A DNA stretch of 64,000 nucleotides, taken from Salipiger mangrovisoli. Its GTDB lineage: Bacteria > Pseudomonadota > Alphaproteobacteria > Rhodobacterales > Rhodobacteraceae. Below the pieces are notes generated by a model. It searched no databases and was not told the origin of the DNA. It saw only the letters and a list, made by a program, of their open reading frames with translations. This document shows positions 7,664 through 9,799 of this stretch, piece after piece. Both the position numbers and the translations under genes were made by a program. The DNA is taken from positions 248,001 through 312,000 of the forward strand of contig NZ_JADFFK010000002.1 of assembly GCF_015223355.1 (NCBI RefSeq). Direction: 5' to 3'. Positions within the stretch are counted from its first letter, which is position 1; each line of letters opens with the position of its first letter.

Positions 7664-7897
7664 TCACTCCACCGAACGGGTGTAGACGCCTTCGGGCAGG
7701 CTGATCGCCGCGGCGAGATCACGCATCTGGGTGATCGAAAGCGTGATCTTGTTCACCCTGTCGGTGCGGGGATCATACTGTTCGACCGTGACGCATTCCT
7801 CGAAACTCGAGACAATCACGTCTTCCTGGAGATGCGGCTCGCCCTCGTCGACGAGGGTGACCACGGTGGCGTCGAATTCGTGCTCGATGCTGAACAT
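7664..7897 (-). CDS. Small conserved-looking hypothetical protein
   Basis: A 77-residue acidic protein without signal peptide or transmembrane segment. The sequence (MFSIEHEFDATVVTLVDEG start, central SSFEECVTVEQYD) looks like a real folded protein: the composition is balanced and the alternative frames are poor. I do not recognise a family. It abuts the DUF167 gene tail to tail. Confidence 0.7.
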   Translation of the reverse strand: MFSIEHEFDATVVTLVDEGEPHLQEDVIVSSFEECVTVEQYDPRTDRVNKITLSITQMRDLAAAISLPEGVYTRSVE

Positions 7898-8076
7898 GGC
7901 CCCAGCCTAGACCTGCCGCCCCGCGGCGCACAATCCGCAAAACGTACGGCATGGTCACGGCGCGGCCAGAGACGCGCGGAAAGCACAATGATGCCAGCCC
8001 GCGCGCAGCGCTCTGGCGCCCACCGGCTGTGCCGCCTATCCTGAACGGCATGACCCGAACCGGAGCGACCCGCCCC

Positions 8077-8790
8077 ATGCGCCGACTTCTGCCCCTTCTC
8101 TTCGTCCTTGTCTCGGCCTGTACCGTGGCGCCGATCTCCTCGGTGCCGACCGGCGGCAGCGATCCGTTCTCGGGGACGGGCTCGCGCGCCGCGCAACAGT
8201 TCACCGAGGTTGTCCACAGGGTCGAGCCAGTGGCCGAGGGGCAGTGCAGGAACTACACCCGTGGCGGCACGAACTGCGATTTCCTGATCGTGGTGGATGA
8301 CCGCCCGGACTCGACGCCAAATGCCTTCCAGACACGCGACAGACAGGGCCGTCCGGTTCTGGCGTTCAACCTCGCGCTGATCCGCGAGGCGCAGAACGCC
8401 GACGAACTGGCCTTTGTCATGGGCCACGAGGCTTCTCATCACATCCTCGGGCACCTCGATCGGGTCCAGGAGGATGCGGCGATCGGGGCAATCATCTTCT
8501 CCGGCATCGCCGCGATGACCGGGGCCGACGAGGCTTCGGTGCGCAGCGCCGAGGAATTCGGCGCCTCGGTCGGCGCGCGCACCTTCACCAAGAACTACGA
8601 GCTGGAAGCGGATGAGCTGGGCACGGTGATCACCCTGCGCAGCGGCTTCGATGCGATTCGCGGCGCGCGTTTCTTCGAACGCCTGCCCGATCCGGGCAAC
8701 CGCTTCCTGGGCACCCACCCGCCGAACGGCGAGCGAATCGACACCGTCCGGCGTACCGTGGAGGCCTATCGCGCCGGTGGCGGTGCCTGA
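8077..8790 (+). CDS. M48-family metalloprotease lipoprotein
   Basis: Predicted zinc endopeptidase of the M48 family, exported as a lipoprotein. Lipobox LVSAC with C15 as the modified cysteine; the zinc motif HEASH is at residues 117-121, followed by H122; a downstream ELEAD at 175-179 supplies the third ligand. At 237 residues it lacks the TPR repeats of BepA-like members. I chose the ATG at 8077 because GGAG lies 11 bases upstream and the signal peptide then starts cleanly (MRRLLPLLF); an ATG at 8050 is the alternative. A role in outer-membrane protein quality control is inference from the family. Confidence 0.88.
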   Translation: MRRLLPLLFVLVSACTVAPISSVPTGGSDPFSGTGSRAAQQFTEVVHRVEPVAEGQCRNYTRGGTNCDFLIVVDDRPDSTPNAFQTRDRQGRPVLAFNLALIREAQNADELAFVMGHEASHHILGHLDRVQEDAAIGAIIFSGIAAMTGADEASVRSAEEFGASVGARTFTKNYELEADELGTVITLRSGFDAIRGARFFERLPDPGNRFLGTHPPNGERIDTVRRTVEAYRAGGGA

Positions 8791-8881
8791 CGTTGATGTG
8801 CATCAAGGGCGCCTGCGCCCGGACCTGATACGCTCTGACCCGAGGTAGGCCCAAAGGGGCTGCACAACAGGGAGAAGAGCC

Positions 8882-9139
8882 ATGCCCGGAGCGAAGGATT
8901 TCAAGCGCCACGCCGGTCTCGTCGATCAGATGGCCGGAGCGCTCGGTGTCGATCTTGAAGAGCAAATGCTGCGCGGCCGACTGAGCTTTGCCGGTCTCGA
9001 AGATGCGGTTCTGGCCTGCACCGGCTGCCACCGCCCAGGTGACTGCGAACATTGGCTCTCCACCCGTGACGGCGTTGCCGCCGCGACGCCGAGCTACTGC
9101 CGCAACGCCGACCTTTTCCGGCAGCTCTCCGGAGGCTGA
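8882..9139 (+). CDS. DUF6455 family protein, copy 1
   Basis: An 85-residue soluble protein. It carries the pattern CTGC-x5-C-x2-WL at residues 46-58 and another Cys near 73. The same arrangement recurs in the next two genes, so this is the first of three tandem paralogs. Four conserved cysteines suggest a metal or Fe-S site, but no function is known. Ribosome-binding site GGGAGAAG precedes the ATG. Confidence 0.8.
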   Translation: MPGAKDFKRHAGLVDQMAGALGVDLEEQMLRGRLSFAGLEDAVLACTGCHRPGDCEHWLSTRDGVAAATPSYCRNADLFRQLSGG

Positions 9140-9143
9140 GGCG

Positions 9144-9467
9144 ATGATCTCGGCCAACATGCTGCGCGGCCCGAGGCCCTTTCCGCTTGGTGACGAACGC
9201 ACGCATTACTGGCGTGTGCAGCGCATGGCGCGGGCAACCGGGCTGGATCTGGCCGAGGCACAACGCCTCGGCGTGCTGCCGCAGCACGATTGGGCGGGGA
9301 TGGTGGGGCGCTGCCGCGGCTGCCTGTGGGCCGAGAATTGCGACCGTTGGCTCGACAAAAGACCCGAGATGACGGATGATCTTTGCGGGCCGCGGACCTG
9401 CCCGGAAGATTGTGTGAACCGCCGCGTTTTCGCGACGTTGCAGGGTGAACTCGATCACGAGGTGTGA
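9144..9467 (+). CDS. DUF6455 family protein, copy 2
   Basis: A 107-residue paralog of its neighbours with CRGC-x5-C-x2-WL at residues 57-69, then an extra Cys-rich tail (LCGPRTCPEDCVN) not present in the other two. The ATG at 9144 follows GGAGG four bases after the previous stop codon, so translation is probably coupled. The additional cysteines could change metal binding relative to the siblings. Confidence 0.8.
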   Translation: MISANMLRGPRPFPLGDERTHYWRVQRMARATGLDLAEAQRLGVLPQHDWAGMVGRCRGCLWAENCDRWLDKRPEMTDDLCGPRTCPEDCVNRRVFATLQGELDHEV

Positions 9468-9470
9468 GCC

Positions 9471-9725
9471 ATGCTGGGCGATCACGCACGGCATTTCTGG
9501 ATGGCGCGCAGCGTTGCGCGCGTGATGGGGCTGAATCTTAGCGACCAGATCGACATGGGTCGCCTCCGCCCCGAGGACTATCGGGTGATGGTGGCCGCTT
9601 GCCGCGGCTGTGCTCTGGTTGAGCAATGCGAGAAATGGCTGGCCACGCAAAGCGACCTGGCCAAGGCGCCGCCGCCGGGGTGCCGGATATCCGCCCCGCT
9701 GATGCGACTGTGCCGAACGGTTTGA
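9471..9725 (+). CDS. DUF6455 family protein, copy 3
   Basis: An 84-residue third copy with CRGC-x5-C-x2-WL at residues 44-56 and a final Cys pair near 71 and 81. The N-terminal half (HARHFWMARSVARVMGLNL) matches the helix preceding the Cys motif in copy 2 (THYWRVQRMARATGLDL). It starts three bases after the previous stop and ends before a strong terminator, closing a three-gene unit. Confidence 0.8.
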   Translation: MLGDHARHFWMARSVARVMGLNLSDQIDMGRLRPEDYRVMVAACRGCALVEQCEKWLATQSDLAKAPPPGCRISAPLMRLCRTV

Positions 9726-9763: not shown

Positions 9764-9799
9764 GCGGCCCGTAGCAATGCTGGCGGGCCGCCTTTTTTT
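9764..9799 (+). terminator. Rho-independent terminator after the DUF6455 genes
   Basis: GCGGCCCG at 9764-9771 pairs perfectly with CGGGCCGC at 9784-9791 around a 12-base loop, followed by seven Ts at 9793-9799. Confidence 0.85.

Follow-up and report, generated by a model that had tools for sequence, protein, structure and literature searches.

The three adjacent DUF6455 genes described here (copies A, B, and C) lie in the window, which is the whole stretch of 64,000 nucleotides that was analysed, and are best explained, with moderate confidence, as an FnrL-activated low-oxygen operon encoding three small, four-cysteine, probably [4Fe-4S]-binding partners whose interactions depend on redox state. 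This explanation is built on computed features, namely the gene unit, the orthology of the copies, the conservation and relocation of their cysteines, a conserved upstream box with its spacing, the co-occurrence with FnrL, and a WhiB-like core. The fourth cysteine, the relocation, the three orthologous lines, the FNR box, and the WhiB-like core appear, from sequence comparison, to be new for DUF6455, and the DUF6455 family as a whole is probably part of how marine alphaproteobacteria respond to low oxygen. An earlier interpretation of this DNA, made from its letters and open reading frames (hereafter the sequence-only reading), had missed the FNR box and the fourth cysteine. All three copies are full members of PF20056, exceeding its curated cut-off of 23.7 bits; Pfam states no function for DUF6455, and a text search on DUF6455/PF20056 found no paper on its function in the literature covered.

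The gene unit, its upstream box, and FnrL

A search of the 6.35 Mb genome found these three DUF6455 genes and no more. The named relatives closest to it, Alloyangia mangrovi and A. pacifica, place the window in their part of the roseobacter group. The sequence-only reading had described three adjacent small DUF6455 genes that share a C-x2-C-x5-C-x2-W-L motif and form a closed unit with its own terminator. This description holds: the open reading frames are separated by 4 bases (A to B) and 3 bases (B to C), each product matches PF20056 above cut-off, the motif was found in 3 of 3 copies, and copy C is followed by a hairpin with a run of seven T (Table 1). The hairpin has a fold energy of -22.1 kcal/mol (z -1.91, with 8 of 200 shuffles equally good) and was not among the calls of a simple consensus terminator scan of the window. 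Judging from the Alloyangia relatives, the start of copy B may be 9159 and not 9144.

Table 1. Features of the DUF6455 gene unit and its upstream neighbour (positions within the window)
Feature	Position	Strand	Remarks
Peptidase family M48 gene	7951..8790	+	Directly upstream neighbour; PF01435 61.7 bits
FNR box TTGATGTGCATCAA	8793..8806	+	Perfect TTGAT-N4-ATCAA; directly past the M48 stop, 75 bp 5' of the copy A ATG
-10-like TAnnnT (TACGCT)	8829..8834	+	Column bias in 68 aligned upstream regions
DUF6455 copy A, 85 aa	8882..9139	+	PF20056 108.3 bits; position-1 orthologous group
DUF6455 copy B, 107 aa	9144..9467	+	PF20056 76.0 bits; position-2 orthologous group; two lineage-specific extra cysteines
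DUF6455 copy C, 84 aa	9471..9725	+	PF20056 66.0 bits; position-3 group; type nearest phage WhiB
Intrinsic terminator, hairpin then TTTTTTT	about 9764..9799	+	Fold energy versus shuffles

The comparative collection comprises 193 DUF6455 domains from 95 loci, by which the tandem array is beyond chance. The bacterial family of this organism is represented by 79 loci and 177 domains, the domain count including three rows of the duplicate locus L137 (identical to L064). The remaining 16 domains come from outside the family; they include L130, which is without the third cysteine and is possibly a spurious frame, and at L131 no domain was found with the profile used. The 79 family loci consist of 60 loci from 59 of 174 positive genomes, 18 of 19 loci from the search that also gave the named relatives, and the window, and were chosen among the best-scoring, mostly A-like, matches.

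A strict FNR box was defined as TTGAYNNNNRTCAA (TTGAY-N4-RTCAA). A scan of the 64 kb found a single FNR box in the window (shuffle means 0.00 and 0.08), and 73 strict boxes were found in the 940,165 bases of the 79 loci. Of these boxes, 68 fall in the 150 bp ahead of the first DUF6455 domain of a locus, against an expectation of 0.06. When up to one mismatch is allowed, all 79 loci have a box upstream of the first copy, compared with 20 of 1580 random windows, and the distance from box to domain is near-constant (median 93 bases); the one-mismatch box of L104, 145 bases ahead of the domain, is possibly due to chance. Outside the family, 7 of 16 domains have a strict box upstream. Of the five strict boxes found elsewhere in the family loci, two directly precede a second, separate DUF6455 copy (L059 and L145), two fall between copies 1 and 2 (L088 and L100), and one is unrelated to the array (L092). 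The box TTGACGCAGGTCAA, present upstream of the array in L096 and L100, is identical to the site given for FnrL at R. sphaeroides RSP_2573 (PMC2908626).

Among the 68 upstream regions with a strict box, a TAnnnT pattern is enriched 36-41 bases past the box (T 0.46, A 0.66, and T 0.71 at positions 36, 37, and 41). We infer from this pattern that transcription starts near 8841, which would place the box centre at about -41.5, the class II activator position; such a site is described as almost optimal for Fnr-dependent promoters (PMC5398030). Genome-wide, 30 FNR boxes were found in 6.35 Mb, compared with 1 for a control pattern. FNR-class regulation of the operon is well supported by these comparisons, and FnrL is the likeliest binding protein; it is not the sole candidate, since the regulators DNR and FixK recognise similar boxes (PMC2908626).

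The genome encodes a protein of the Crp family (G000:C10:91060-91803) whose N-terminal cysteine motif has x7 where E. coli FNR has x5; its gene adjoins radical-SAM (hemN-like), Usp, cbb3 oxidase, and FixG genes, a region that holds three boxes. Judging by this neighbourhood, we take the protein to be FnrL. The distribution of FnrL was surveyed in 295 sampled genomes of the bacterial family, with presence called at E <= 1e-60. DUF6455 was detected in 172 of 258 FnrL-positive and 2 of 37 FnrL-negative genomes (p 3e-13, uncorrected for phylogeny; absences are possibly over-counted, as at most the best 17 DUF6455 and 9 FnrL candidates were scored per genome), and both FnrL-negative carriers are incomplete assemblies (84% and 71%). 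The 37 FnrL-negative genomes are those absent from the list of FnrL matches, 20 of them listed as such and 17 obtained by subtraction. Because 86 of the 258 FnrL-positive genomes gave no DUF6455 match, these proteins are not essential to the FnrL response. In addition, DUF6455 was found in 62 of 76 NosZ-positive and 112 of 219 NosZ-negative genomes (p 3e-6), and the link persists within FnrL-positive genomes (odds ratio 2.9, p 9e-4); neither value is corrected for phylogeny, and the co-occurrence is thus not used to argue for a role in denitrification. In a sample of the phylum, 29 of 398 genomes carry DUF6455, and 27 of these belong to the same class.

Compared with the FnrL regulon of Rhodobacterales, the array is similar in having a conserved TTGAY-N4-RTCAA box, at what would be an activator-type position, and different in that no published regulon entry could be matched to DUF6455. 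Reported FnrL targets include uncharacterised or hypothetical genes such as RSP_2573, RCC00435, and RCC00901 (PMC4263372, PMC4634722, PMC2908626). The presence of feoABC and an Fe-S assembly gene among the FnrL regulon members described (PMC4263372) is consistent with another role, in which DUF6455 proteins would store or deliver iron or Fe-S clusters under FnrL and would be neither regulators nor adaptors. Their small size and several copies, together with weak FeoC matches in 3 of 41 members (best E 0.0087), also suit iron handling; no isc, suf, or feo gene was recognised among the neighbour clusters inspected, however, and the three diverged orthologous lines suggest specific partners, so that we consider this alternative unlikely.

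Orthologous lines and the cysteine set

The 28 triplet arrays were given a tree of their own (support values are paired). In it, position 1 forms one clade in 28 of 28 (support 98/92), position 2 forms a clade in 26 of 28 (87/88), and position 3 forms a clade in 26 of 28 together with the position-2 row L063_2 (87/83), the exceptions being loci L063 and L105. A larger quick tree of 173 of the 193 rows, from which the 16 outside-family rows, the three L137 rows, and the truncated L074_4 had been dropped, supports the A, B, and C groups at 97, 84, and 94, respectively, and assigns 25 of the 28 position-2 copies to the B group. The alignment is 75 columns long, and many inner forks are unresolved. 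The groupings show that the three copies are anciently diverged and keep the same order, A-B-C, across triplet arrays. The sequence-only reading had asked whether the copies belong to separate orthologous groups and had named recent duplication without specialisation as the outcome that would count against it. Separate groups in the same order were found, which contradicts that outcome. Although a tandem arrangement is what recent duplication would leave, the family-wide orthologous groups and the conserved promoter site make unspecialised recent duplicates, or a chance run of small open reading frames, highly improbable.

The 79 family loci hold one copy in 22 cases, two in 24, three in 28, and four in 5. 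Of the 22 single-copy loci, 20 carry a member of the A group in the 173-row tree, and copy A looks like the core member of the arrays, which is partly ascertainment because the loci were taken from the best, mostly A-like, matches. Among the 24 doublets, 12 have a second copy from the C group, 6 have one from the B group, and 2 have one from the A group (L059 and L145, in which the order is reversed); in the other 4, the second copy belongs to no supported group. These numbers bear on the suggestion that the copies are subunits of one hetero-oligomer, which was made by the sequence-only reading and which we regard as improbable. The A-B-C order and tight packing are conserved features of the 28 triplet loci and the mean net charge of the domains differs by position (-4.3, +0.4, and 0.0 for positions 1, 2, and 3), as subunits of a single complex might show. 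However, an obligate complex of three subunits is unsupported because one- and two-copy loci are common (the others may be encoded elsewhere in those genomes), and no fixed stoichiometry is required, given that the type of the second copy in doublets varies.

All three lines share one set of cysteines. In alignment columns, C39 is present in 177 of the 177 family domains, C42 in 163, C48 in 177, and C66 in 176, the sole exception at column 66 being the truncated row L074_4; the corresponding counts for the 16 domains from outside the family, L130 included, are 16, 16, 15, and 16. Across the 193 domains, C-x2-C-x5-C is usually followed by W-L, and the fourth cysteine, 18 alignment columns past the third, usually lies within C-x-N. 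Thus, the motif of the sequence-only reading was correct but omitted an equally conserved fourth cysteine, and its expectation that the cysteines are kept in orthologs is borne out by four near-invariant columns. The 14 family domains without C42 all carry C44 instead, two residues later, and all fall in the C group of the 173-row tree; five domains have both residues and none has neither. A cysteine that moves while the total is kept is what metal ligation predicts.

Copy B does have extra cysteines, as the sequence-only reading noted, in a stretch that precedes the fourth cysteine and is not an added tail. One of them is common to three Alloyangia relatives and the second occurs in the window only, among the 38 relatives listed; since they are lineage-specific, they are not taken as a functional addition. 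The metal or Fe-S role proposed by the same reading has become likelier in view of the cysteine relocation and the conserved FNR box, and the cofactor of the DUF6455 copies is probably, with moderate support, an Fe-S cluster.

Likeness to FNR and WhiB

The C-x2-C-x5-C spacing of DUF6455 is common to E. coli FNR, endonuclease III (Nth), and phage WhiB, and endonuclease III binds a [4Fe-4S] cluster. E. coli FNR holds its iron-sulfur cluster on C20, C23, C29, and C122 (PMC5398030), and WhiB is described as binding [4Fe-4S] (PMC5741622, PMC6282962). Like the FNR sensor motif (C20-x2-C23-x5-C29 plus the distal C122), DUF6455 combines three closely spaced cysteines with a distal fourth; unlike FNR, the copies have no match to a CRP-type sensor or HTH domain.

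Profile comparison points to WhiB in particular. Against six phage WhiB proteins, all from related phages, hhalign gave probabilities of 69-94% (with E-values for single comparisons) and scores of 26-35, compared with an average of about 12.5 for column shuffles anchored on the cysteines; FNR, Nth, and four other proteins scored 9-15, which is background. The real WhiB score was reached by 0 of 200 shuffles for phage Archie and by 0 of 100 for each of the other five. These five were added because Archie had been picked by its resemblance, and they were taken as relatives of Archie down the ranking, not by likeness to DUF6455. The Archie WhiB gave 57% in a comparison with fewer sequences. By type, the match to the WhiB profile rises from A (58.9%) to B (88.0%) and C (93.4%). 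Among phage protein families, the best outside match was the WhiB-like phrog_1821, which was hit by 6 of 41 members (best E 0.0017, with the next family at 0.069); copy C matched it at E 0.0041, and copies A and B were unmatched. The stretch common to DUF6455 and WhiB covers about 30-45 residues around C-x2-C-x5-C-x2-W. The tryptophan after the third cysteine is present in 158 of 177 family domains, and the corresponding residue of WhiB1, Trp49, three residues past Cys46, is described as lining a channel to the cluster (PMC5741622).

Other searches were less sensitive or negative. Pfam WhiB (PF02467) was listed for none of 41 members at E up to 10, in a search whose HMMER filters drop most weak matches, and had no match in this genome. 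Phage tblastn with copy C returned only non-significant matches (E 7), the phage Archie WhiB among them. AlphaFold2 models have five helices for both copy A (pLDDT 88.6) and copy C (pLDDT 92.0, pTM 0.82). For the copy C model, Foldseek found no PDB match at E <= 0.001 and VIA gave a best Z of 3.1 among 72 chains; no Wbl chain is among the rows listed by either, an absence that does not exclude a Wbl fold. Profile searches of solved structures gave nothing convincing (best E 0.086, malate dehydrogenase), and a 30-aa core fragment reached E 0.0093 with a designed helix bundle, no stretch passing alone.

DUF6455 and Wbl proteins are thus alike in being small and helical, in having four cysteines with a C-x2-C-x5-C-x2-W core and several paralogues per genome, and in a profile similarity that reaches beyond the cysteines. 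They are unlike in the fourth cysteine, which is C-terminal (column 66) in DUF6455 and N-terminal in the six phage WhiB proteins, the full sets being C39, C42, C48, and C66 on one side and C14, C39, C42, and C48 on the other; in WhiB1 it is given as the N-terminal C9 (PMC6282962). The G[V/I]WGG turn was found in 0 of 193 DUF6455 proteins, an absence that weighs less because the fetched phage WhiB proteins also lack the exact string. We therefore do not count DUF6455 among the Wbl proteins, mainly in view of the opposite placement of its fourth cysteine and the lack of a listed Pfam WhiB match.

Four conserved cysteines would suit Zn(Cys)4 equally well, and the move from C42 to C44 is compatible with any metal; the copies might then be FnrL-induced small zinc-knuckle proteins without redox chemistry. 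We consider this possible but rather doubtful, since the cysteine spacing matches that of the Fe-S proteins FNR (PMC5398030), WhiB (PMC5741622), and Nth, expression is tied to an oxygen-switch site, and the similarity to WhiB extends past the cysteines.

Under the favoured explanation, that of an FnrL-activated operon of redox-dependent partners, a fall in oxygen would lead FnrL to bind the box at about -41.5 and recruit RNA polymerase, and copies A, B, and C would be co-produced as small, all-helical DUF6455 proteins. Each would carry one metal site, formed by C-x2-C-x5-C and the distal cysteine and most probably occupied by a [4Fe-4S] cluster labile to O2 or NO. With the cluster intact, each protein would bind its own target in a manner dependent on redox state, in the way that WhiB acts with sigma factors, and destruction of the cluster by O2 or NO would abolish this binding activity. 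The adaptor role and the separate partners of A, B, and C are what we infer beyond the computed features. For DUF6455, found in 174 of the 295 sampled genomes, this would supply a likely regulator and cofactor, as well as a role in a low-oxygen switch that can be tested.

A bolder and unlikely version holds that DUF6455 is the alphaproteobacterial counterpart of WhiB, i.e., a set of O2/NO-sensing [4Fe-4S] adaptors, three per operon and one layer below FnrL, each docking a different sigma factor or regulator. If this were true, the cell would read oxygen or NO a second time, and the two protein families would have a WhiB half-site in common, with the cluster completed by a cysteine from the opposite side of the chain. 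Wbl proteins are described as exclusive to Actinobacteria (PMC6282962); if DUF6455 is WhiB-like, marine Alphaproteobacteria would possess a relative, or a convergent equivalent, of this type of redox control. In an Azospirillum transcriptome, a DUF6455 gene is listed among ethylene-affected genes (log2 1.67), and a DMSO reductase anchor subunit appears in the same table (PMC11819568).

Neighbouring genes and distant relatives

Counting the window, 70 of 79 loci have the M48 gene upstream of the array in the same orientation; it is treated as neighbourhood only because in the window the FNR box separates it from the array. A 77-aa protein encoded at 7664-7897 (-) of the window has no Pfam or NCBIfam match, and 72 of 79 loci, again including the window, encode a homologue upstream of the array on the opposite strand, making it a conserved unknown. 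In 36 of 79 loci (e.g., L058:5238-6005), a UPF0029 (YigZ/IMPACT-type) gene lies close to the array in the same orientation, no more than 600 bp upstream in 27 and elsewhere, mostly just downstream, in 9; the one such gene tested matched PF01205. A functional tie to the downstream TRAP transporter was rejected, as only 4 loci among the 79, those of the window and of three Alloyangia, contain its DctP gene.

Outside the family, the proteins of L118, L121, and L129 have, by eye, an N-terminal hydrophobic, membrane-anchor-like stretch, and those of L120 and L125-L128 have a longer N-terminal part. A DUF1127 fusion is not claimed, the one match (L126, E 0.09) being weak. The protein at L179 (G000:C4), presumably Rrf2/IscR-like, has C-x2-C-x5-C in its cysteine region. 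Distant DUF6455 relatives with 33-36% identity to copy A are also carried by six plasmids, namely CP069018.1, CP155823.1, and four other Thioclava plasmids.
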